From positions 248,001-312,000 of the forward strand of contig CAMVNQ010000002.1 in assembly GCA_947168885.1 (NCBI GenBank): a stretch of 64,000 nucleotides of DNA, written 5' to 3'. The notes below the pieces were generated by a model that was not told the DNA's origin, did not search any database, and saw only the letters and a program-made list of their open reading frames with translations. Numbering within the stretch: position 1 is the first letter of the stretch; every line of letters starts with the position of its first letter. Positions 45,161 to 56,829 of the stretch are shown here, piece after piece. Position numbers and translations under genes: made by a program. Origin of the DNA: an uncultured Clostridia bacterium (lineage in GTDB: Bacteria > Bacillota > Clostridia > Oscillospirales > Ruminococcaceae).

Positions 45161-46741
45161 TTGAGTACTTCAAAAAAGAAATCAAATAAAATGGGATTTT
45201 CAGCTCTTAACAGAATTCTGATAATCCAGTTAGTAGTAATGCTCGGTCTCTCGATATTTATTACAGTCACCGTAAGCAACAAGACGAGAGATAACGCTAT
45301 CGAACACATGGGCGCTATCGCCGATGAGCGTGCGCATATCATTGAAAATTACGTTGAAAACTCCGAAAATACACTTAAGAATTTCTGCAAGGCACAGCAG
45401 GTACAGGATATACTCAAGTATTCGTCACAGCTTGCGGCAGGCACAAATGTAAGCGCTGATGCTCAGGCTGCTCAGAAAGCTGCTCAGCAGTTCACCGAGG
45501 AATTCGGCAAGGATATCGATAACCTTGAGGGTCTTTGGATCGGTTCGTGGGACACCCACGTTCTGACTCATACCAACGCAGCTGTTGTTGGTATGCAGAC
45601 CCGTCCGGATGCAGAAAAGCAAAAAGAGCTCCACAACGGAATGGAGCGCAATGCAGATAAGCTCTACGATCTTGGTATCATGATCTCTCCCGCGAGCCAG
45701 AAACAGTGTCTTTCGATGTATCAGGCTGTTTACAGCGCAGGCGGCGATCCTATAGGTTTCGTCGGTCTCGGTATATACACCGACGGTCTGATCAATACCC
45801 TTAACAGTATCCCGATCCGCGGCGTTGAAAACTCCTTTTACAGCATGGTCGATGTCAACAGCGGTCTTTATATCTTCAACGCAGACGACACATCGAAGAT
45901 ACATACCCCTATCGAAAACGAAGACCTCAAGAATATCTGCGCGCAGTACAAAGGTACTACCGCATCCGACAGCACCGGCGACTATGAGTATGTAAAAGAC
46001 GGTGAAAAGTATATCTCGATATACACTTATATACCCGAGCGCGGCTGGCTTGTAACGATTGACGATACAAAGGGTGAAGTTTTCGCTCTTAAAACTACGA
46101 TGATCATTTACCTCGGTATCTTCGGTGTTGTTATCCTCGGACTTATCATAGTATTCAACGTTATCAGCAAACGTCAGGAGGCTATCAACCAGAAGCTCCT
46201 TTCGACGATCAATAAGAACTCAATGACAAAGAAGTCCCTGAATACCGCTATGTTCAAGGATGTACTTACCGGTGTCAACAACCGTGTAAGCTATACTATG
46301 AACCTTGACAAGATAAAGGCATCAGAGGATTCGCCCTGCTACTTTGCAATGTTCAACATCATAAAGTTCTCCGAGATAAACTCCACTTACGGAGCCGAGG
46401 CAGGCGACCTGCTGCTCGTAAAGACAACAGAGGCTCTTACAGAATTCTTCCCCGACTGTGAGATCTATCGTACCGGTTCGGACGAGTTCCTCGCTGTCAT
46501 TCCCGCACCACAGGGCAGTCCCAATATGAACGAAGTCATGGACAAGGTAAATCTCGCATTCCGTCAGATGTGTGTTTCCAAGCAGATCGAAAATGTCGGC
46601 ACTATCCGTCCCGATTATAAGGTGGCAGTCGGCAGGAAAACGAAAGGCAATGCCGATACTGCGATCATAGGAACTCTCAAGAAGAAGATGAACGAGAGCG
46701 ACAAGGCTACGATCGGTATGATCGAGTGCATAGATCTTTGA
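45161..46741 (+). CDS. Membrane sensor with dCache-like domain and degenerate GGDEF domain
   Basis: 526 residues. A membrane helix at about 18-40, an extracellular dCache-type sensor (about 42-305), a second helix (about 308-332) and a C-terminal GGDEF-like domain (345-526). The active-site motif reads GSDEF, and the metal-binding DxD of the first strand is replaced (FNIIKFSEINSTYG), with no RxxD inhibitory site. Diguanylate cyclase activity is therefore doubtful; a GTP- or c-di-GMP-binding receptor role is more likely. Start is TTG 45161 after AAAGGTCAG. A long hairpin (46775-46808) follows the stop. Confidence 0.82.
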   Translation: MSTSKKKSNKMGFSALNRILIIQLVVMLGLSIFITVTVSNKTRDNAIEHMGAIADERAHIIENYVENSENTLKNFCKAQQVQDILKYSSQLAAGTNVSADAQAAQKAAQQFTEEFGKDIDNLEGLWIGSWDTHVLTHTNAAVVGMQTRPDAEKQKELHNGMERNADKLYDLGIMISPASQKQCLSMYQAVYSAGGDPIGFVGLGIYTDGLINTLNSIPIRGVENSFYSMVDVNSGLYIFNADDTSKIHTPIENEDLKNICAQYKGTTASDSTGDYEYVKDGEKYISIYTYIPERGWLVTIDDTKGEVFALKTTMIIYLGIFGVVILGLIIVFNVISKRQEAINQKLLSTINKNSMTKKSLNTAMFKDVLTGVNNRVSYTMNLDKIKASEDSPCYFAMFNIIKFSEINSTYGAEAGDLLLVKTTEALTEFFPDCEIYRTGSDEFLAVIPAPQGSPNMNEVMDKVNLAFRQMCVSKQIENVGTIRPDYKVAVGRKTKGNADTAIIGTLKKKMNESDKATIGMIECIDL

Positions 46742-46808: not shown

Positions 46809-46973
46809 ATAATATGATTTACAGCTCAGTATCTATAATATATCCGGAATTACAGGTTATTCCGCTAAGGCATGGATGTCATAAGAAGGTTTCCGAAGGA
46901 TAGCTGGTACTGCATGATGCAGCGGCAACAAAAGAGTACAGCGCACATAAGAGACCTGCCAAAGGGAGGGCGT

Positions 46974-47528
46974 ATGCAGAAATATGCCATATTCAAGTCT
47001 GAAACAGGCTATTATTACTACAAATATTACGATACTATCGAATCACTGACAGGCACAATGTTTGACGGCATTATCAGTCCCGAATCTCTGCCGGTGGTAA
47101 TTGATGAGACCGGCGGATTCTTTTCGCTTAAAGGAGCAGGATACCAGTTTGTGCGTATTGCCGAAAGCGATACTGAACCGCTCACACTGGAGGAAATGTT
47201 TTTCAAGAACATGGACGACTTCAAACTTGGCTGGATGTCTCCGGACGGCGATACTTATTCCTGCAGCTATACCGGTCATGCAAAGTGCGCAAAGATGCTT
47301 GCGGAGAAATTCTTTCCCGATGCACAGCTTCCGGAGAGAACTCTCGGAAAAGCAGGCTGGCTCAAGATCATAGATTCATGGGACGGTACACAGCGCGAAC
47401 ATAAGCAGTTTGTTTATTCGCTGACCGGGAAAATGACCAAACGACAGGCTGACAAGTTATTCGATCTCGGTCTTTATGCCAACCCGGAAGTACTTGAGAT
47501 CATATCCGCAAGCGAAGATTCATGGTGA
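46974..47528 (+). CDS. Hypothetical protein
   Basis: 184 residues, cytosolic, no recognised family. Aromatic-rich N-terminus (YAIFKSETGYYYYKYYDTI) and a compact alpha/beta pattern; a CSYTGHAKCAKMLAEKFFP segment carries two cysteines. The C-terminal part (LPERTLGKAGWLKIIDSWDG) is well formed, so the gene looks intact. ATG 46974 with GGGAGGG just upstream is chosen over an upstream ATG at 46872 without a ribosome site. The 232-base gap before it holds the hairpin described above and nothing else clear. The phosphoesterase gene follows after 48 bases. Confidence 0.65.
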   Translation: MQKYAIFKSETGYYYYKYYDTIESLTGTMFDGIISPESLPVVIDETGGFFSLKGAGYQFVRIAESDTEPLTLEEMFFKNMDDFKLGWMSPDGDTYSCSYTGHAKCAKMLAEKFFPDAQLPERTLGKAGWLKIIDSWDGTQREHKQFVYSLTGKMTKRQADKLFDLGLYANPEVLEIISASEDSW

Positions 47529-48216: not shown

Positions 48217-48245
48217 TTGACAAATCATTACAATGATGTTATACT
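48217..48245 (+). promoter_or_regulatory. Promoter of the eight-gene signalling operon
   Basis: TTGACA at 48217-48222, 17-base spacer, TATACT at 48240-48245. No other good promoter or full terminator is seen before 56796, so it may drive the entire run of genes to 56741. Confidence 0.8.
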
Positions 48246-48312
48246 ATCAATAGATATGCTCATATTTGTTTTTGCATTGCATATCATATAAGATCAACAG
48301 GAGGCAGACATT

Positions 48313-49344
48313 ATGGCTGAAACACGTTTCATGAGGACAGTAGTTTTCGGAGGATATGATAAGAGTGATGTTGATAAAAAACTCGAATACATATACGATC
48401 TGTTCTTTGACTGCAAAAACAAATTGAGAGAAGCAAAGCTTCTTCTCGGTAAAATGAAGGCGGGCGCAAACGAACAGGACGCGCTTGATTCCGTTCTTGC
48501 TGACGAAAGAGCAAAGCTTACCGAATTACAGGTTAAAAACGAACAGCTTATCGAAAAAGCAAAATCCCTCAACGACGATAATGTGCGTAAGGAAAAGGAA
48601 CTTGCCGAACTCAGGAGCAAGGTTGCAGATTTAGAAACAAAGCTTAACGGAGCAGAGGCTAAGCTTGCTTCTGAAGGCGGCACCAACTCCGGTGCAATGC
48701 TTAATATCGTCTTCCAGCAGGCACAGACTTCCGCAGATCTGATCCTTAGTACAGCTCAGAAACAGGCCGACGATCTCAAGACAGATTCACAGAAGCTCGC
48801 CGAAAACACAGTGACAGATGCCAACAACAAGGCAAAGATGATAATTTTTGAAGCAGAAACGAACGCTGCAAAGATCACCGCCGAGGCAAAGGAAAAGGCT
48901 TCTGCAATGGATGTCGCTTCCGGCAACATCAAAGCCTCAGTACTCGGCGATGTCGAGAGAATGAGCGCAGAGCTGTCTAAATTCAAAGAAATATTTGACA
49001 AGTTCGGTTCGACCGGCACGGATATGATCTCACAGTCGATGGAACTGCTGGACGATGCCGTAACAACCCTCACGTCAGGCGGTATTCCCGTTTTCCACGA
49101 ACCGGAAAGATTTGAAGCAGAGCTTGTTGAAAGCCCCATGCTTGAGGATATAGATGAATTCTACCTGACCGGCAGCGAAAACTCCGGAAATGAAGATTCA
49201 GGTTCGGATAACAAGAACGATACCCTTCAGAAGCTGAAAGAAAAAGCTGCTGCATTAAGCGGCGGTTCCGGTGCAGAAGAAAATACCGGCAGCAAAAAGA
49301 TAAGTCTTGAAGATCTGGCTATGAAAGCCAAATCAATGAAGTAA
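48313..49344 (+). CDS. DivIVA-like coiled-coil protein
   Basis: 343 residues. The N-terminal MRTVVFGGYDKSDVDKKLEY has the F-x-GGYD-x-x-DV start typical of DivIVA-type proteins. Coiled coil spans about 25-120 and 130-230 (ATP-synthase-b-like Ala/Lys/Glu pattern, NNKAKMIIFEAETNAAKITA). The last 100 residues are acidic, and a short basic tail ends in KAKSMK. No membrane helix. It shares the N-terminal pattern with the protein at 10290 and may be a distant paralogue. As first gene of the kinase/phosphatase operon it may localise the complex or be a phosphorylation target; both are inference. GGAGGCAG precedes the ATG. Confidence 0.75.
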   Translation: MAETRFMRTVVFGGYDKSDVDKKLEYIYDLFFDCKNKLREAKLLLGKMKAGANEQDALDSVLADERAKLTELQVKNEQLIEKAKSLNDDNVRKEKELAELRSKVADLETKLNGAEAKLASEGGTNSGAMLNIVFQQAQTSADLILSTAQKQADDLKTDSQKLAENTVTDANNKAKMIIFEAETNAAKITAEAKEKASAMDVASGNIKASVLGDVERMSAELSKFKEIFDKFGSTGTDMISQSMELLDDAVTTLTSGGIPVFHEPERFEAELVESPMLEDIDEFYLTGSENSGNEDSGSDNKNDTLQKLKEKAAALSGGSGAEENTGSKKISLEDLAMKAKSMK

Positions 49345-49374
49345 CACAGTCTTTTATATTACGGAGGATACATT

Positions 49375-51060
49375 ATGGCTGTTCAGGATATTATTATAGT
49401 TAAGCCGGATAAGTGCGTAGGATGCAATTCCTGTGTAAGAACATGTCCCGCTCCCGAAGCAAATATCACCAAAATGCTGAGCGACGGCAGATTTGTTACA
49501 ACAGTAAATCCGGAGAAGTGTATTGCCTGTGGTGAGTGCGTAAAAACATGCTCGCACGGAGCAAGAGACTATATCGACGATACAGAGGGATTCATGGCTG
49601 CTCTGCCCAAGATAAAGCCTATAATTCTTGCTACACCTTCGATCAAGACGGTATATCCAAATAAATGGAAAGGCATACTCAACTGGTTCAGATCCAAGAA
49701 CTGCATAATTTATGACGTTTCGTTCGGTGCCGACATCTGTACATGGGCACACCTGAGAGCTATCGAAAACAAGAAAGTCGAAAAGGTTATCACTCAGCCT
49801 TGTGCAGCAATTGTCAAGTATATAGAGACGTATCAGCCCAAGCTGCTGGACAACCTATCCCCCATACACAGCCCGATTTTATGCGCTGTGGTTTATATCA
49901 AGAAGTATCTTAAACTTAATAATCCTATCGCTGTGCTCTCCCCTTGCGTTGCGAAAAAGTCCGAGTTCCTTGAAACAGGACTTGTTGAATACAACGTTAC
50001 CTTCCGCAAGCTTCAGGATTATTTTGACAGGAGCGATATAAGAATACCCACAAATTCCGATTCGGATTTTGAATACAACTTTGAAGAAAGACAAGGTCAG
50101 GTCGGTGCAGTATATCCGCGTCCCGGCGGACTCAGAGACAATCTCTGGCTTCATAACGCCGATATCAACATTACCACATCGGAGGGCGTTCAGAAAGTAT
50201 ATGCCGAACTCGATATGTATGCCGAGATGCCTGATTTCAAGCACCCCGAAGTTTTTGATGTCCTTTCCTGCGAATTCGGATGTAACGTAGGTCCCGGTAC
50301 CGGTACCACACAGACCGTATTCGATGTTATGGCATATATGCGCGAGATCGAAAGAGAGGCTAAATCGCGCCGTAAGACAGGTGCGTTCAGAAACGGTGAA
50401 GATAAGCTCTTCAAGAAGTTTGACGATGAGCTTAATCTTGTTGACTTTATGAGAACTTATCACCCCGTCGCTCCTACCCCGCAGCCTACCGACAGACAGC
50501 TTGATGCTGTATTCAATATGATGGGCAAGCATACCGAGGACGAGCGTAATTTCAACTGCCACGCCTGTGGTTATAAATCATGTCGTGATATGGCGACAGC
50601 TGTCTGTCGCGGTCTTAACAATGTCGATAACTGTATAGTACACGCGAAATCTGTACTTACCGCTCGTCACAGTGAACTTACCGCGCAGCACGAGCTGCTG
50701 ACCGAGATCACAACCGAGTGCTTTGATCTTTCCAACAAGCTCAAGGACAATCTCCGCAACATAAACGATAATATGCGCGTGATAGGCGATTCTGCGAGCA
50801 AGACAAGCGACAGAGCAGGTGAAGTAAATGAGCTCCTCACAAGCGTTATTGATTTCTGCGGACAGAACAAAACTATGGATGCCTCGTCCGTAAAACAGCT
50901 TGCGGATATTCTAAGAATGACGCAGAGCGCTTTTAAGGCTCTTGATGACAATGTTAATGTGACAAACGAAAGCTCGGAACTCATAGGCAAATCCGTTACA
51001 GAGATCAATTCGCTTGTCGAAAAAATCAACTACAATCTGCGCAAAACTGAAAAGAAGTAA
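49375..51060 (+). CDS. Sensory-type [FeFe]-hydrogenase homologue with coiled-coil tail
   Basis: 561 residues. Two [4Fe-4S] sites (C14/17/20/24 and C49/52/55/59) lead into an iron-hydrogenase large-subunit domain (about 75-335). H-cluster motifs are modified: L1 TQPCAAIV near 140, L2 SPCVAKKSEF near 190, L3 SCEFGCNVGPGTG near 300. The cluster-ligand cysteines remain, but the proton-relay cysteine of L1 is replaced by proline, as in group C/D hydrogenases proposed to be sensors. A CxxCGYxSC Fe-S motif (about 396-405) and a long C-terminal coiled coil (415-560) follow. No PAS domain and no maturation genes are nearby. GGAGG precedes the ATG. Confidence 0.85.
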   Translation: MAVQDIIIVKPDKCVGCNSCVRTCPAPEANITKMLSDGRFVTTVNPEKCIACGECVKTCSHGARDYIDDTEGFMAALPKIKPIILATPSIKTVYPNKWKGILNWFRSKNCIIYDVSFGADICTWAHLRAIENKKVEKVITQPCAAIVKYIETYQPKLLDNLSPIHSPILCAVVYIKKYLKLNNPIAVLSPCVAKKSEFLETGLVEYNVTFRKLQDYFDRSDIRIPTNSDSDFEYNFEERQGQVGAVYPRPGGLRDNLWLHNADINITTSEGVQKVYAELDMYAEMPDFKHPEVFDVLSCEFGCNVGPGTGTTQTVFDVMAYMREIEREAKSRRKTGAFRNGEDKLFKKFDDELNLVDFMRTYHPVAPTPQPTDRQLDAVFNMMGKHTEDERNFNCHACGYKSCRDMATAVCRGLNNVDNCIVHAKSVLTARHSELTAQHELLTEITTECFDLSNKLKDNLRNINDNMRVIGDSASKTSDRAGEVNELLTSVIDFCGQNKTMDASSVKQLADILRMTQSAFKALDDNVNVTNESSELIGKSVTEINSLVEKINYNLRKTEKK

Positions 51061-51071
51061 TTCAATATAAT

Positions 51072-51103
51072 GGCAGTACCGTACTTTTTTGTGCGGTACT
51101 GCC
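51072..51103 (+). other. Intercistronic hairpin
   Basis: GGCAGTACCG (51072-51081) pairs perfectly with CGGTACTGCC (51094-51103) between the hydrogenase-like and LRR genes. No T-run follows; RNA processing or 3'-end protection are possible roles. Confidence 0.6.
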
Positions 51104-51157
51104 TGATAACGTCTCTGCATTGATCATTATTATGCTTAAGGGGTGGGTGGATACTAT

Positions 51158-52219
51158 ATGCAGTGCCGTAACTGTAAGGCAGAAGTGCCGTTCGGTAAGG
51201 TGCGTTGTCCCGAATGTTCATATATCAATCCATACAATATTATGGGATACAAAAACACAAAGGAAATACAGACATCCCTCAGAACGATGATCGTTGAACA
51301 GTACGGCAGGATAGCCGATGCAAAACAGTTCAATGCTGTGATGTTTGACTACATTCCTGAATATACTATGGAGCGTAAACTGTTAAGTAAAGCAGTGGAC
51401 GCCGGCTTTCTTGAAACGATTATCGCCGCGGAAGACAAAAAGAAGACATTCAAAGGCCTGAGAAACAAGCTTATGAATGAAAGCGGCTTTCATAGGTACG
51501 ATGCCGAATTTGTACTTGTATGCTTCGGGCATATGCTCGGATTTTCTTATGTCTCCCCTTTATTCATGGATGATAAACCGCCTAAGCAGGAAGATGAAAG
51601 CAGCATCGAGGCTGTCAGACGCGAGACCAGAATAAGGATATTCGGTAAACTTGATGCTTTCAGATACGTTCTTTCGGGAAAACCAACAGTAAAGGAAGGC
51701 TATACCGAGCTTGCGGGTTACTGTTTTGAAAATTTCAGTCTGATGAAAGAGATCTCGCTTCCGTCAACATTGAAGACCATAGGCGAATACGCCTTCACGG
51801 ACTGTAAGAATCTCGAGAGCTTTACCCTTCCCGACACAGTAAGAAAGCTTGAAAAAGGTGTGTTCAATGCCTGTGTGGGACTGAAAAAGGTCATTTTACC
51901 GGAGGGACTGCAGTCAATTGGCGATAATTGCTTTTTCTGCTGTACCTCACTTAAGACCGTAAGAGTTCCTGACACCGTCAGCAGCATCGGCGAGAACGCA
52001 TTTTCGGGCTGTGCGGAACTTGAAAAGCTTATTGTACCGAAGAATGTAAAATTTATAGATAATAAAGCCTTTGCGTACTGCGGCAAGCTTACCGTGATAT
52101 GCACCGAAAATTCGTTTGTTCATAAATACTGTATGCAAAACGGTATAAAATATCAGACCCTGCCTATGGGCGTAACTCTGCCGGGCACGGATCAATCGGA
52201 GGGAGAGCTTGATGAATGA
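51158..52219 (+). CDS. Zinc-ribbon, helical-domain and BspA-type leucine-rich repeat protein
   Basis: 353 residues, no signal peptide. A zinc ribbon (CRNCKAEVPFGKVRCPEC, residues 3-20) is followed by a helical domain (about 45-140) of a type seen in bacterial multidomain signalling proteins (EQYGRIADAKQFNAVMFDY, LSKAVDAGFLETI). BspA-type LRRs span about 195-330, with five units of the form LPxTLKxIGEYAFTDCxNL. LRR_5 proteins are mostly secreted; an apparently cytosolic one within a kinase operon suggests a protein-interaction module. ATG 51158 is placed 7 bases after GGGTGG. It overlaps the kinase gene by 8 bases. Confidence 0.82.
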   Translation: MQCRNCKAEVPFGKVRCPECSYINPYNIMGYKNTKEIQTSLRTMIVEQYGRIADAKQFNAVMFDYIPEYTMERKLLSKAVDAGFLETIIAAEDKKKTFKGLRNKLMNESGFHRYDAEFVLVCFGHMLGFSYVSPLFMDDKPPKQEDESSIEAVRRETRIRIFGKLDAFRYVLSGKPTVKEGYTELAGYCFENFSLMKEISLPSTLKTIGEYAFTDCKNLESFTLPDTVRKLEKGVFNACVGLKKVILPEGLQSIGDNCFFCCTSLKTVRVPDTVSSIGENAFSGCAELEKLIVPKNVKFIDNKAFAYCGKLTVICTENSFVHKYCMQNGIKYQTLPMGVTLPGTDQSEGELDE

Positions 52220-53555
52220 GCTTAGTATTGGGCAACAGGTAGAACTTGAATACGGTGATAAGGCTACCGTTACCGGAATAATAGGAAGCGGCGGTCAGGG
52301 TAAAGTGTACGCTGTTGACTATAACGGAAGAAAATGGGCGCTAAAATGGTATGATATTACCAAGATCAATGATCCCGACCAGTTCCGCGAAAACATAAAG
52401 AAAAATATAAACGACGGCGCACCGAGCAATAAATTCCTGTGGCCGCAGTATCTCACAAAAGTGTGCGAGGACGGAACGTTCGGATATCTTATGGATCTCA
52501 AACCCGAAAGTTTTGACGCATTCACCGATATTCTCAACACCTACAAGCTGAAGATAGACCCGCTCACGGGACAGGCTGTGCGGCAGCCGGTGAGATTTAC
52601 GGATCTCAGAGCCATGGTCACCGCTGCAATTAACATCTCCAACGCTTTCAGACAGCTCCACAGAGTCGGCAAAAGCTATCAGGATCTTAACGACGGCGGA
52701 TTCTTCATCAATGTGGATACGGGCGCGGTGCTTGTCTGTGACTGCGATAATATCGCTCCGGACGGCTCAAACTTCGGTATAGGCGGCAAGCCGGGATATA
52801 TGGCTCCCGAGATAGTGCGCGGAATTGCCAAACCTGATGTTCAGACCGATAAGTATTCCCTTGCGGTAGTGCTTTTTAAGCTTTTGTTCAGAGGAGACCC
52901 GCTTGAAGGTCAGAAAGTGGTAAAGGACGTATGCCTTACCGAAGCCGCCGAGCTTAAACATTACGGAGCGGAAGCAGTATTCGTATATGATCCGGAAAAT
53001 GTCTCTAACAGACCTGTAAGAGGCATACATGACAATGTTATCAAGTTCTGGAAAATGTATCCCGATTACATAAAAGATGCATTTATAAAGTCTTTTACCG
53101 TCGGTCTGACAGATACGAATAAAAGAATAATAGAAAATGAATGGCAGAAAATGTTCATACGGCTAAGGTCCGAGATCATATCCTGCCCCTGCGGAAGAAC
53201 TAATTATGCATGTATGTTCGAGATGGAAGACAGACTGACATACAGATGTCCGAAATGCGGAATGACGTTTGCGACACTTGAATTTTCCGGCAGGGATAAC
53301 AGAATGCCGTTATATATCGGATCACGGTTCTATCAGTGCGAGATCGATCCTGATTCAGAGGACTACGCTGCTGTTGCCGGTATGCTTGTGGAAAACAAGC
53401 TTAAACCCGGTGTGCTCGGTATAAGGAACTGCTCCGAGCTCACATGGAACGCACGTATGCCGGACGGTGAGTTCCATAAGGTAGCTCCGGGAAAGGGCTG
53501 CCCTATCTGGCAGGGTCTTGAAATAGATTTCGGCAAGGTGACCGCAAAAATATAA
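52212..53555 (+). CDS. Ser/Thr protein kinase with C-terminal zinc ribbon (TerY-P type)
   Basis: 447 residues. The kinase domain has a Gly-rich loop GSGGQGKVY (25-33), Lys45 in ALKWYD, the catalytic Asp in SYQDLNDGGFFI (HRD Arg and His absent), and CDCDN in place of DFG, with the metal Asp kept. An APE-like MAPEIV follows. At about 324-350 a zinc ribbon (CPCG...YRCPKCG) is present, then a beta-rich C-terminus (GIRNCSELTWNARMPDGEFHKVAPG) resembling a degenerate FHA-like segment. This order is that of the TerY-P kinases, which act with a vWA protein and a PP2C phosphatase; both are encoded next. GGAGGGAG precedes ATG 52212. Confidence 0.88.
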   Translation: MNELSIGQQVELEYGDKATVTGIIGSGGQGKVYAVDYNGRKWALKWYDITKINDPDQFRENIKKNINDGAPSNKFLWPQYLTKVCEDGTFGYLMDLKPESFDAFTDILNTYKLKIDPLTGQAVRQPVRFTDLRAMVTAAINISNAFRQLHRVGKSYQDLNDGGFFINVDTGAVLVCDCDNIAPDGSNFGIGGKPGYMAPEIVRGIAKPDVQTDKYSLAVVLFKLLFRGDPLEGQKVVKDVCLTEAAELKHYGAEAVFVYDPENVSNRPVRGIHDNVIKFWKMYPDYIKDAFIKSFTVGLTDTNKRIIENEWQKMFIRLRSEIISCPCGRTNYACMFEMEDRLTYRCPKCGMTFATLEFSGRDNRMPLYIGSRFYQCEIDPDSEDYAAVAGMLVENKLKPGVLGIRNCSELTWNARMPDGEFHKVAPGKGCPIWQGLEIDFGKVTAKI

Positions 53556-53680
53556 ATGCATACCGGGCAAACAGGCGCTTGCGAGCTTTGCGTGGCTGCT
53601 TACAGCGCCGCATCATGCTTTTGCTTGCATATCAAATATCCGGAAAATCATAATAAATAATGCGAAAGGACGCTTTTAGT

Positions 53681-54523
53681 ATGAATAACATAAATGATGC
53701 CGCTGAGGAGAGATCTGTTATGAATGATAAAATCCAGAATTCATCGGCGGTTGATAATACCGATCCTTTTGATTTTGATGACGATCCCCTCGGTGCTACA
53801 GGTGTATCGAGAAAAAGCCTTGTAATTTTCTTCATGATAGATACATCGGGCAGTATGAAGGGCACCAAGATCGGTGAACTTAATACTATTATGGAGGAGC
53901 TTATCCCCGAGATCAGACGCGTTGGAGAAGCAGATACTGAGGTTAAAGTCGCAGTACTTACTTTCTCAACTGATGTAAAATGGATGTATCCTGAGCCTAT
54001 ACCGATCGAGGAATTTGAATGGGTAAGACTCAATGCATCCGGTGTAACCAGCATGGGAGCGGCGTTCAAGGAATTATCTTCAAGAATGTCCAGAAACAGC
54101 TTCCTTAATTCACCGTCGCTGTCATTTGCTCCGGTTATTTTCCTTATGACGGACGGCTATCCTTCCGATGACTACGAGGAGGGTCTCAAGGCTCTTTCGG
54201 TTAACAGCTGGTACAAATTCGGACTTAAAGCTGCTCTTGGTATCGGAAATGAAGCAAACGACGATATGCTTGCAGAGTTTACGGGAAGTGCCGATACGGT
54301 CGTTCACGCCTATTCCGGCAATCAGCTTGCGCAGATGATAAAGATCGTTGCGGTTACAGCTTCGCAGATAGGAAGCAAATCCATGACACTTTCTGATCAG
54401 GCTGAAGCCGAGCTGAGTGATGAGGATGTTTATGCTTCAAAGCAGAAGATGCTTGGTCAGCAGATTCAGAATCTTGTAAATCAGAACGAAAACGACAATA
54501 CAGATTTTGATGCGGGTTGGTAA
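53681..54523 (+). CDS. vWA-domain protein (TerY-like)
   Basis: 280 residues. An acidic N-terminal tail (1-40) is followed by a von Willebrand A domain (about 47-235) with a full MIDAS: DTSGS at 53-57, the Thr in NASGVTSMG, and the Asp in LMTDG near 157. GSADTVVHAYSGNQLAQMIK matches the TerY branch. The C-terminus is Gln/Asn/Asp-rich. TerY proteins are metal-dependent scaffolds of TerY-P phosphosignalling triads. ATG 53681 is placed 10-11 bases after AAAGGAC; an upstream ATG at 53660 has no ribosome site. The 125-base gap before it has no clear gene. Confidence 0.88.
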   Translation: MNNINDAAEERSVMNDKIQNSSAVDNTDPFDFDDDPLGATGVSRKSLVIFFMIDTSGSMKGTKIGELNTIMEELIPEIRRVGEADTEVKVAVLTFSTDVKWMYPEPIPIEEFEWVRLNASGVTSMGAAFKELSSRMSRNSFLNSPSLSFAPVIFLMTDGYPSDDYEEGLKALSVNSWYKFGLKAALGIGNEANDDMLAEFTGSADTVVHAYSGNQLAQMIKIVAVTASQIGSKSMTLSDQAEAELSDEDVYASKQKMLGQQIQNLVNQNENDNTDFDAGW

Positions 54524-54531
54524 TGTTTTTG

Positions 54532-54556
54532 TATCCTGCTCCTGAGAAGCAGGATA
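54532..54556 (+). other. Intercistronic hairpin
   Basis: TATCCTGCT (54532-54540) and AGCAGGATA (54548-54556) form a perfect 9-bp stem between the vWA and PP2C genes, with no strong T-run (TTACGGTTTTG). Partial terminator or mRNA-stability element. Confidence 0.55.
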
Positions 54557-54594
54557 TTACGGTTTTGTAAATATTTCAGAGAGTGGTGAGTTTA

Positions 54595-55491
54595 ATGCTT
54601 GGCGGCTTCAGTTATTCCGTTAAGGGTGCAAGCCATGAAAAAAGAGGAATAGTCTGCCAGGATGCTTCGGCTTATATGTCAGGAAACGGCTTTGCAGCCG
54701 CCGTTGTAGCAGACGGACACGGTGGCAAGAAGTATTTTCGCAGTAATGTCGGTTCGCAATGCGCTGTTGAGGCTGCTTTGGAAACGATAGAGCTTTTTTA
54801 TGCCGACCCCGACGAATTTGACCTTCGTTTTAAAGCAGATCATAAGCGGATAATAAAGCGTATCGAAAAATACGCCATTATGCTTTGGAATGACAAAGTT
54901 TTGCATCATCTGAATACCCATCCGGTGACCTCTGAGGAATTAAAAAATTTCACCTATGATGAGATCGAAGATATTCCTCCGGAATCCTACTACGGCACCA
55001 CTATGGTATGCGCCGTTATGGCAAGAGGATATTCGTGGGGATTTCAGATAGGTGACGGAAGTCTTGTGGCTGTATTTGAAGACGGCGAAACTTCAATGAT
55101 AATGGAGTATGAAGAGTCTAACCCTGCAAATATCACATCGTCATTGTGCAACGCTAATGCATTCGATATGTTTGCTTCATTTTATACTGAAAAAAGACCG
55201 GTCGCAATAATTGTATCAACTGATGGTCTATATACATCTTTTGGCAGCGATTTTGATTTTCTTGACTATCATACCATTATCGCAGGTCAGCTTGTCAACC
55301 CCGAAACGTTTTTAGGTTCGCTGCAGAACAATATGAAAAAACGATCACATTACGGTACGGAGGACGACATTTCAGTGTCCTGCATATATGATAAGATCCT
55401 TGCTCTTTCACAGCAGGATATCATAAACAATAAAATTGCGGAAAACAAACGCCTTGCAGCTGAGCGAAAAGCAAAACTGCTGAATAAATAA
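54595..55491 (+). CDS. PP2C-type protein phosphatase
   Basis: 298 residues. Metal-binding aspartates occur in VVADGHGGKKYF (about 38-48) and VSTDGLY (about 206), with QIGDGSLVAVF (about 150) and the final EDDISVSC (about 257). RGIVCQDAS at the N-terminus is the usual first strand. It should remove phosphate from Ser/Thr, the counterpart of the kinase two genes upstream. ATG 54595 is preferred; GTG 54583 is in frame and possible. The C-terminal helix is basic. It lacks membrane helices, unlike SpoIIE. Confidence 0.88.
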   Translation: MLGGFSYSVKGASHEKRGIVCQDASAYMSGNGFAAAVVADGHGGKKYFRSNVGSQCAVEAALETIELFYADPDEFDLRFKADHKRIIKRIEKYAIMLWNDKVLHHLNTHPVTSEELKNFTYDEIEDIPPESYYGTTMVCAVMARGYSWGFQIGDGSLVAVFEDGETSMIMEYEESNPANITSSLCNANAFDMFASFYTEKRPVAIIVSTDGLYTSFGSDFDFLDYHTIIAGQLVNPETFLGSLQNNMKKRSHYGTEDDISVSCIYDKILALSQQDIINNKIAENKRLAAERKAKLLNK

Positions 55492-55511
55492 CCAAAGGCA
55501 GGTGGCAGATA

Positions 55512-56186
55512 ATGGATCACAGTACACTTTATAACACCGCAAAAGAGCTCACGGAGAAGGTAAAGCGCGAAAGACCGTGTTACAGCGGACTTGAGGCAGC
55601 GGTCATCATCAGTGACAAGGGCGTGTTTCTGGGTGTAACAGGTTTAAATACAGCGGACGGGAAGATCATTGATGTTCCTGCCGATGTGGCAGCTTTTCTT
55701 AATATGAAAAACTCGGGAGGACGGACTGCACTTGGTCTGGCAGTTCTGAAACTTGAAGATATTAGCTTTATAAGACCTTCCGACGAAGCGCTGGAGCTTA
55801 TGTTCCGCACCAATACCGAAAATGACGGGTGTCTTGTCTGTCTCGGAGCAGATGAAGATAAACTGTTGTCGGCGCTGCGGCTCGGAACGGACAGTGATTC
55901 TATGATGGACGGCTTCGGCTTTGACGAGGACGATACATCGGCAGATACCACTGCAAATGTAATAAGCGGTGTTGCCGTTGACAAGAGCAGTCCGTTCTAT
56001 GAACGATCGGAAACAGTCGCTCCTCCGGTGGAGACGTTATCGGACAAAGCAGATAAACCGGAAAACGTTCTGTCGGGTAATACTTCCTCAGAACCAGAGC
56101 TTACGCCGGAAGAACTTCTTAAACAGGCAAAAAAACGCAAAAGCGTATCAAAATCGAACTTTCTGTTCAGAAAAAAACATAAATGA
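55512..56186 (+). CDS. Hypothetical protein with possible degenerate deaminase-like domain
   Basis: 224 residues, not assigned. Residues 1-125 look like a compact alpha/beta domain (EAAVIISDKGVFLGVTGLNT, VPADVAAFLNMKNSGGRTA, EALELMFRTNTENDGCLVC) whose order of strands and helices recalls cytidine-deaminase-like folds, but the zinc ligands HAE/PCxxC are not present. Residues 130-205 are acidic, Ser/Thr-rich linker with potential phosphosites; the C-terminus is basic (KKRKSVSKSNFLFRKKHK). In the operon with kinase and phosphatase it could be a substrate. GGCAGGTGG precedes the ATG. Confidence 0.7.
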   Translation: MDHSTLYNTAKELTEKVKRERPCYSGLEAAVIISDKGVFLGVTGLNTADGKIIDVPADVAAFLNMKNSGGRTALGLAVLKLEDISFIRPSDEALELMFRTNTENDGCLVCLGADEDKLLSALRLGTDSDSMMDGFGFDEDDTSADTTANVISGVAVDKSSPFYERSETVAPPVETLSDKADKPENVLSGNTSSEPELTPEELLKQAKKRKSVSKSNFLFRKKHK

Positions 56187-56216
56187 TCCTTGAAAAAGGC
56201 GGGGGGTAAATATATT

Positions 56217-56741
56217 ATGGCATTCTCATTATACAGTATTGATGAAGCTGTCGATCACAAATATATTGTTGTCAAGAGCATTAAGGAACAAGTGAAAAAA
56301 GGTACGCTTGTTCACATTATGGATGCCAGTGAGTCATCTGACGGTATCACAGTTAAATATCGCGTCACAAAGACAAACCAGGATTTTACTGTCAGATTCA
56401 ATACCATAAAGCAGTTCTGCAACTGGTGTATGCCCAGTTCATTTCTCGCAAAGTATTATAACAAGCTCTCATACAGAGACGTCATCAAGTATATACAGGC
56501 AGAGAACAGAAGCTTTCCGGCATTCCATCTTCCTATCATACTGATAAGTCTCGCTATTATATGGTCTTTGTCTATGCTGATGGTATATATGAAATTTATT
56601 GAACTGCCATTCGGCTTGATCATAGGCGGTGCATTGTCTGTTATATGCATCGTGTGCGTATTTGTATTGACTCATGTGTCCAAGACCCATATGATAGAAC
56701 AGTTGTATGAAAAAGTCAGCAAGAAACAGAGTTTTCTATAA
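56217..56741 (+). CDS. Two-helix membrane protein of unknown function
   Basis: 174 residues. The first 105 residues form a soluble domain (LYSIDEAVDHKYIVVKSIK, YRVTKTNQDFTVRFNTIKQF) and then two membrane helices follow at about 107-128 and 133-158, with a basic C-terminal helix. There is no family match that I recognise. The start is ATG 56217 after a GGCGGGGGG ribosome site. It is the last gene of the operon; terminator at 56796. It might anchor the complex to the membrane (inference). Confidence 0.7.
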   Translation: MAFSLYSIDEAVDHKYIVVKSIKEQVKKGTLVHIMDASESSDGITVKYRVTKTNQDFTVRFNTIKQFCNWCMPSSFLAKYYNKLSYRDVIKYIQAENRSFPAFHLPIILISLAIIWSLSMLMVYMKFIELPFGLIIGGALSVICIVCVFVLTHVSKTHMIEQLYEKVSKKQSFL

Positions 56742-56795
56742 TACAAATGCGGCATAAGTGCGATGATGGTTTTACACTTCTGCTTTTAATCTGAG

Positions 56796-56823
56796 CCCTG
56801 TGATACAAGTCAGTATCACGGGG
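56796..56823. terminator. Terminator of the signalling operon
   Basis: CCCTGTGATAC (56796-56806) pairs with GTATCACGGGG (56813-56823), followed by five T; also downstream of convergent sigG. Confidence 0.88.
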
Positions 56824-56829
56824 TTTTTA

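Follow-up and report, generated by a model that had tools for sequence, protein, structure and literature searches.

What connects a hydrogenase-like protein with a set of genes for protein phosphorylation? The question is raised by a locus in a stretch of 64,000 nucleotides from an uncultured Clostridia bacterium of the family Ruminococcaceae (GenBank assembly GCA_947168885.1, contig CAMVNQ010000002.1, positions 248,001 to 312,000 of the forward strand). This whole stretch is called the window, and positions are counted from its first letter. A listing of open reading frames (ORFs) with their translations gives eight ORFs, all on the plus strand, between 48313 and 56741. In order, they encode a DivIVA-like protein, a hydrogenase-like protein, a zinc ribbon-LRR protein, a Ser/Thr kinase, a vWA protein, a PP2C phosphatase and two further proteins, u7 and u8 (Table 1). 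An original prediction, made from the sequence, had named eight codirectional genes; their strand and order are confirmed by the ORF coordinates. It had also assigned domains to the hydrogenase, LRR, kinase, vWA and PP2C proteins, and these are borne out by Pfam matches above the curated cut-offs (Fe_hyd_lg_C at 82.5 bits, 4Fe-4S domains, PF04060 at 28 bits, LRR_5, Pkinase, VWA and PP2C_2).

The answer proposed here, tentatively and at slightly less than even confidence, is that the locus may form a sensor-plus-switch unit. The hydrogenase-like protein would be an H-cluster sensor of H2, CO or redox state. A TerY-P-like switch, built from the kinase with its zinc ribbon, the vWA protein and the PP2C phosphatase, would receive this state by way of the sensor's C-terminal iron-sulphur (FeS) domain and its coiled coil. 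In turn, the switch would set the phosphorylation of clients encoded alongside; the likeliest clients are the linker protein u7 and the DivIVA-like scaffold, which would act at the pole or division site. Behind this proposal stand the domain plan, the conservation of catalytic and ligand residues, the linkage and co-occurrence of the genes, and the fusion of the sensor core to known signalling outputs in other proteins of this genome. The bound ligand, the contact between sensor and switch, the direction of control, the clients and their location are the parts that we infer.

How constant is the pairing? Hydrogenase loci were collected by a contig scan with a six-row alignment. The best 80 of 258 relatives were kept, each with a flank of up to 10 kb, so these loci lean towards close relatives. 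By our own title count, 67 of the 80 are titled Ruminococcus, including R. flavefaciens and R. albus strains; two (L176 and L177) come from the same assembly and are identical as proteins. A kinase with 50% identity or more is present in the fetched flank in 53 of the 80 loci; among the 45 loci with flanks of 9 kb or more on each side, the figure is 37. The linked kinases stand in several arrangements: 25 are codirectional within 3.6 kb, 7 are codirectional further away, 20 are divergent and 1 is upstream on the same strand. The remaining 27 loci comprise 19 with short flanks and 8 with long flanks, and in seven of the eight genomes of the latter group the kinase occurs elsewhere. This neighbourhood search had been set in advance as a test by the original prediction, and the two genes did not prove to be rarely adjacent.

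Upstream sequence of 1.5 kb or more is available for 75 hydrogenase loci, and 71 of them have the DivIVA-like gene; among the loci listed, it lies about 1.0 to 1.5 kb ahead of the start of the hydrogenase. Two controls gave no such association. The window's downstream sigma-factor gene has a match of at least 60 bits in none of the 80 loci. Likewise, DivIVA-like or kinase matches occur in none of 16 loci of hydrogenase paralogues with 30-45% identity, some of which have short flanks. Gene order and strand vary between genomes. In a quick tree of 79 hydrogenases (L105 and L128 left out; 60 rows with a known state and 19 without one, their flanks being short), the arrangement changed at least 12 times and the linkage itself at least 4 times.

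The same question can be asked from the kinase side. Among 45 kinase loci of at least 60% identity, the window uncounted, the LRR gene is present in 45, vWA in 44, PP2C in 43, the hydrogenase in 23 and the sigma-factor gene in none. Thus the LRR, kinase, vWA and PP2C genes are the fixed core, to which the hydrogenase/DivIVA pair is attached. The 29 kinase loci with at least 8.5 kb on both sides include the hydrogenase in 15, the DivIVA-like gene in 14, a GGDEF gene in 20 and a periplasmic-binding protein gene in 15; the chance level for GGDEF is about 0.2 per stretch (our own estimate, from 46 matches in a genome of 3.78 Mb). None of 12 kinase loci of lower identity has a hydrogenase. There are therefore two separable modules. 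One comprises the DivIVA-like protein, the hydrogenase and the product of a conserved upstream gene at 46872, which belongs to the hydrogenase/DivIVA unit. The other comprises the zinc ribbon-LRR protein, the kinase, the vWA protein, the PP2C phosphatase and the linker protein.

The variable order and strand, and the occurrence of the modules apart from each other, lead us to reject a single fixed operon. The one eight-gene operon of the original prediction does not hold: the hydrogenase is near only 15 of the 29 long-flank kinase loci, one relative has a T-tailed hairpin between the modules, and u8 is often reversed. Two R. flavefaciens loci, L178 and L182, have 11 genes in one direction, in the order periplasmic-binding protein, GGDEF, 46872 protein, DivIVA-like, hydrogenase, LRR, kinase, vWA, PP2C, u7, u8.

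The pairing can also be followed across whole genomes. Of 396 genomes of the family, 32 have both hydrogenase and kinase, 3 the hydrogenase only, 14 the kinase only and 347 neither (Fisher p 1e-32, uncorrected for kinship); thus 32 of the 35 hydrogenase-bearing genomes also have the kinase. Counted by genus (n=126), 11 have both, 0 the hydrogenase only and 3 the kinase only. The cut-offs, about 690 bits for the hydrogenase and 700 bits for the kinase, were set after inspection of the score lists. G071 was scored as kinase-only despite a hydrogenase fragment at a contig end, and the hydrogenase of G249, split over two contigs, was counted once. In the 32 genomes with both genes, 24 pairs lie within 10 kb and 8 on different contigs. 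One of the 24, in G323, is linked through a second hydrogenase copy of 677 bits, under the cut-off, and its exclusion gives 23 of 32. The kinase contig of G213 is 3.1 kb long and so cannot show linkage. Taken together, the linkage counts from both sides and the co-occurrence in genomes make chance adjacency unlikely (53/80 hydrogenase loci, 7/8 unlinked genomes with the kinase, 32/35 by co-occurrence).

Within the window's own genus the kinase is sparse. A close kinase is found in 3 of 60 sampled genomes (G000, G410 and G453) and a distant one in three more, whereas the kinase is frequent in related genera. This suggests patchy loss or horizontal gain. In G410 and G453 the genes are ordered as in the window over the length of the fetched stretches.

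Several findings weigh against the reading of the locus as a sensor-plus-switch unit. G403, which has a long-flank hydrogenase locus, is without the kinase, and its hydrogenase has the longest branch in the quick tree. The hydrogenase-only genomes are G237 (99% complete), G339 (72%) and G376 (81%), and three genera have the kinase module with no close hydrogenase. The hydrogenase is absent nearby in 14 of the 29 long-flank kinase loci. In the relative L117, the gap between the hydrogenase and LRR genes holds a 12-pair hairpin with 6 T in the 8 bases after it. The DivIVA label, which draws on an N-terminal signature and on sub-threshold hidden Markov model (HMM) matches, is weak. Finally, local inversions keep genes near each other anyway, so the rearrangements are support for selection on linkage and not proof of it.

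Could the two modules merely share a purpose? In this explanation, which is possible but rather unlikely, both serve one cell process, such as growth, division or attachment under changing redox, and they stand together for co-regulation only. The hydrogenase would act on the DivIVA-like scaffold, and the kinase signal would come from elsewhere, for instance from the pair of periplasmic-binding protein and GGDEF protein. The hydrogenase is indeed tied more constantly to the DivIVA-like gene (71/75) than to the kinase (53/80). Kinase loci without a hydrogenase also exist, often with GGDEF (20/29) and periplasmic-binding genes (15/29). However, the co-occurrence of hydrogenase and kinase is near-complete even where they are unlinked (7/8; 32/35).

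The sensor-plus-switch reading further requires that the hydrogenase-like protein be a sensor. In its domain plan, an H-domain follows two 4Fe-4S motifs and is in turn followed by the FeS domain PF04060 (28 bits against a cut-off of 23) and a coiled-coil-like end at about residues 423-561. Sixteen candidate FeS or H-cluster cysteines are identical in all 79 hydrogenase sequences, the window's included; these counts hold for the four candidate H-cluster cysteines of the H-domain (79/79) and for the cysteines of the C-terminal 4Fe-4S domain (79/79). The domain plan and conserved ligands support its placement as a putative sensory hydrogenase. The original prediction of this kind is upheld by the Pfam plan, the cysteines and an alignment with paralogues.

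The source genome has five Fe_hyd_lg_C matches. Three of the paralogues have the same sensor plan, followed at the C-terminus by a methyl-accepting chemotaxis protein (MCP) domain and a receiver (787 residues), by GGDEF-EAL (1012 residues) or by GGDEF (640 residues). They are G000 C9, C7 and C14 (L250, L251 and L252), and the gene for the GGDEF-EAL protein adjoins a FIST-domain gene. Since the same core is fused to these outputs, the core is a signalling input. The output is unfused in the window copy, and it must therefore lie in trans. In the source genome, H2 or redox sensing seems to be wired to chemotaxis and cyclic di-GMP as well. The fifth protein has a far higher score, 334.6 bits, and is without the C-terminal cysteines, as would be the case for a catalytic HydA.

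Another explanation, an improbable one, keeps the same switch and gives it a different input. The hydrogenase-like protein would carry FeS clusters without the [2Fe] subcluster, and its role would be that of a scaffold or of a simple sensor for redox or FeS status. Catalytic enzymes aligned with it have Cys before the L1 ligand, and the likeness to catalytic enzymes fades in the H-domain. Pro precedes the L1 cysteine in 62 of the 79 sequences, and only 57 retain the Lys of the L2 motif. On the other side, the four candidate H-cluster cysteines are invariant, and the maturase HydG is present in the source genome.

Known sensory hydrogenases offer a comparison. In the available part of PMC13104023, the putative sensory groups, C and D, are characterised by a shared C-terminal 4Fe-4S domain, and PAS domains occur in group C. 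Judged by domain plan, the window protein resembles the groups of TmHydS and TamHydS, as described in the available parts of PMC13104023 and PMC8924675, in its N-terminal 4Fe-4S clusters, its H-domain and its C-terminal 4Fe-4S domain, and it has no cysteine before the L1 ligand. Unlike them, it ends in a coiled coil of about 140 residues and has no PAS match (none is found among the 16 Pfam matches at E 0.1 in the window proteins), and the proposed output genes beside it encode a Ser/Thr kinase triad and a DivIVA-like protein.

An example from the same bacterial group is R. albus 7. According to the accessible part of PMC6776011, this strain has a hydrogenase of group C together with a putative Ser/Thr phosphatase, and the cluster is 111-fold lower in co-culture with an H2 consumer. 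As in the window, a sensory-type hydrogenase adjoins a Ser/Thr-type phosphorylation enzyme. Unlike the window protein, the R. albus 7 hydrogenase has a PAS domain and adjoins hydrogenase and alcohol dehydrogenase genes, and it may not correspond to the window gene.

The proposed switch can be compared with the TerY-P triad, which is described in the part of PMC11090510 consulted (citing Anantharaman et al. 2012) as a vWA protein, a PP2C phosphatase and a kinase with a C-terminal zinc ribbon. The window has three such proteins encoded by adjacent genes, with a zinc ribbon after the kinase domain and with intact MIDAS and phosphatase motifs. Conservation was counted in cluster members of sufficient length. 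In the kinase cluster, the catalytic Lys is kept in 49/49, the HRD-type Asp in 45/49, the candidate DFG-type Asp in 46/49 and 49/49, and the four Cys of the zinc ribbon in 49/49; a Pkinase match is found in 15/15 members of kinase cluster A2. The MIDAS residues are kept in 46/46 vWA proteins and the eight tested motif residues in 47/47 PP2C proteins. The CxxC...CxxC pattern of the LRR cluster, in the N-terminal region, is kept in 49/50. The conserved catalytic residues support a TerY-P-like triad, in agreement with the original prediction. All fold statements rest on sequence. An FHA-like fold for the last 90 residues of the kinase was a guess with no Pfam support and is not claimed.

The triad also departs from the known one. 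Here an LRR protein is encoded alongside it and, in many genomes, so are a hydrogenase-like sensor and a DivIVA-like protein. The window vWA protein has no match to a curated TerY model. It does match plasmid proteins annotated TerY-C (tblastn E about 6e-10 to 8e-13 among the matches listed). Its nearest plasmid relative among the matches listed is a protein of Prevotella sp. E2-28 from sheep (NZ_CP091789.1, 38136-38708, 42%); this protein from a ruminant host is far nearer to the window vWA than the enterobacterial TerY-C proteins. The original prediction had stated that Ter genes are absent. This stands for TerD (PF02342), with 0 matches in the genome; TerC and other Ter genes were not searched. 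An association with Ter genes, as tested by TerD, is thus not seen, nor is it required in the accessible part of PMC11090510.

A second kinase copy in one relative (L076 9516-10853, G135 C1) has HALS in place of the YQDLN-type catalytic residues, and is probably a pseudokinase. It adjoins a PP2C gene, and no vWA match is found there.

That the triad is a TerY-P-like antiphage cassette, placed here by chance, is very improbable: such modules are reported in defence loci in the available part of PMC11090510 and the kinase matches the PADLOC kinases PD-T4-6 (E 1.6e-11) and mad6 (E 4.5e-10), but no PADLOC match at E 0.1 was obtained for vWA or PP2C, TerD has no match in the genome, the conserved nearby partners are sensor and scaffold genes, and no phage or restriction gene is among the identified conserved clusters.

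Which proteins might the switch act on? DivIVA proteins have an N-terminal F-x-G-Y-D signature followed by a coiled coil. The sequence FGGYDKxDV is kept or nearly so in 13 chosen DivIVA-like rows, and the strict pattern GY[DNS]..[DEA]V[DE] fits 20 of 74. The Pfam DivIVA match reaches 22.2 bits, on the coiled coil, against a cut-off of 28, and the NCBIfam Wag31 match 27.4 against 260, so that no family model is matched. The DivIVA-like label of the original prediction draws on this N-terminal signature and on HMM matches under the cut-off.

A precedent for such a client is the StkP-dependent phosphorylation of DivIVA in pneumococcus, as given in the part of PMC3983041 at hand. The client relation proposed here is analogous: a DivIVA-family scaffold would be the target of a Ser/Thr kinase. 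Unlike StkP, the window kinase has no PASTA match, has a zinc ribbon after the kinase domain and is encoded alongside a hydrogenase-like sensor.

The second candidate client is u7. Neither u7 nor u8 of the window matches any Pfam family at E 0.1. In the u7 orthologue of L123, HAE and PCGEC motifs are kept, and PF00383 is matched at E 1.8e-4, under the cut-off; a PF00383 match is found in 1 of 11 members, and the best PDB profile match is blasticidin-S deaminase (E 0.014). The N-terminus of u7 may thus be a degenerate cytidine-deaminase-like domain. The linker appears to be a fast-changing region of low complexity between this domain and a conserved basic tail. Long repeats of the YPQQG type occur in the linker of R. 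albus and R. flavefaciens relatives (e.g. L129 17480-18973, L133, L138) and not in the window.

The DivIVA-like protein and u7 may have a C-terminal motif in common. A loose form of it is found in the last 60 residues of 23/74 DivIVA-like proteins, 14/19 complete u7 proteins and 1/658 other ORFs, as well as 2/79 hydrogenases and 1/46 vWA proteins; a strict form is found in 9/74, 9/19 and 1/658. The motif was defined post hoc, after inspection of the sequences, and is offered as a lead.

A more complete version of the sensor-plus-switch reading can be drawn, although it is doubtful as a whole. In it, an unfused H-cluster sensor would control the TerY-P-like switch, the DivIVA-like protein and the deaminase-like linker protein would be clients with a common docking motif, and H2 would set the polar growth, division or attachment of Ruminococcus. 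More generally, the conserved pairing in gut and rumen bacteria of the Ruminococcus type suggests a route from H2 or redox sensing to protein phosphorylation. If this is true, the TerY-P triad gains a defined input and the sensory [FeFe] hydrogenase gains a kinase output. The pairing in these H2-producing bacteria names concrete partners for both. The level of H2 in the rumen governs fermentation balance and methane, according to the available part of PMC6776011, and a route from H2 to phosphorylation would therefore bear on both. Among the matches listed in the open literature (titles and abstract starts, with most subscription papers outside it), none brings a TerY-P triad together with DivIVA or a sensory hydrogenase.

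Table 1. Features of the locus and its upstream neighbours (positions in the window).
Feature	Positions	Strand	Evidence
GGDEF protein with weak dCache match	45161-46741	+	GGDEF 47.3 bits; dCache_1 18.8 bits, under cut-off
Conserved protein upstream of DivIVA-like gene	46872-47528	+	Cluster in 60/81 regions, window included
Promoter-like site, TTGACA-17-TATACT with TG	48217-48245	+	11/12 consensus matches; consensus only
DivIVA-like coiled-coil protein	48313-49344	+	GGYDKxDV N-terminus, coiled coil, tail motif LxxLxxxA
Putative sensory-type [FeFe]-hydrogenase-like protein	49375-51060	+	Two 4Fe-4S motifs, H-domain, C-terminal FeS domain, coiled coil
Hairpin in hydrogenase-LRR gap	51072-51103	+	13 pairs, loop TTTTTT, no T run after
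Zinc ribbon-LRR protein	51158-52219 (alternative start 51143)	+	LRR_5 128.9 bits
Ser/Thr kinase with C-terminal zinc ribbon	52212-53555 (alternative start 52209)	+	Pkinase 38.7 bits
TerY-like vWA protein	53681-54523 (alternative start 53660)	+	VWA 36.5 bits
PP2C phosphatase	54592-55491 (alternative start 54583)	+	PP2C_2 107.4 bits
u7: putative degenerate cytidine-deaminase-like N-terminus, linker, conserved basic tail	55512-56186	+	
u8: two predicted membrane stretches (by eye)	56220-56741 (alternative start 56190)	+	Family unassigned
Terminator-like hairpin 3' of u8	56793-56826	+	14 pairs, own scan

The original prediction had framed the eight genes by one promoter and one terminator. Both sites exist. 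The promoter-like site ranks best among 28 such sites in the scanned stretch, but the count is not exceptional against 20.8 (standard deviation 4.2) in shuffles. The last pairs of the terminator-like hairpin extend into a T tract in our own scan, and the hairpin is absent from the list of the first hairpin scan. The LRR and kinase genes overlap by 8 bases.

Does transcription stop between the two modules? The hairpin at 51072-51103 exists as described before, and a stop there is rejected: the sequence downstream is TGATAACG, with no T run on the plus strand, so it is not a canonical terminator on that strand. No such hairpin was listed by our own scan in seven codirectional relatives (L105, L114, L116, L119, L124, L181 and L184), in which 11 to 61 bases separate the hydrogenase stop from the first LRR match. 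Weaker hairpins containing T lie between the hydrogenase and LRR genes of L133, L144, L178, L180 and L182.

The limits of the gene run are only partly those first drawn, as the gene at 46872-47528 is also conserved upstream and u8, though linked in relatives, is on the other strand in many of them. Comparison with relatives places the start of the 46872 protein probably at about 46974. This protein has no Pfam match, and no fold is assigned to it, the best PDB match being a weak one (E 0.036). The GGDEF protein before it is a possible upstream neighbour of an extended locus. For u8, an NCBIfam immunity-protein match reaches 15.5 of 100 bits, under the cut-off.

A MoxR-type ATPase gene lies near 5 of the 45 kinase loci. 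In some relatives such a gene stands between the modules; for instance, L066 10190-14985 encodes a MoxR-type ATPase together with a long LRR_5 protein and a vWA/metallopeptidase-like protein of DUF2201, and this segment separates the hydrogenase from the LRR-kinase module.

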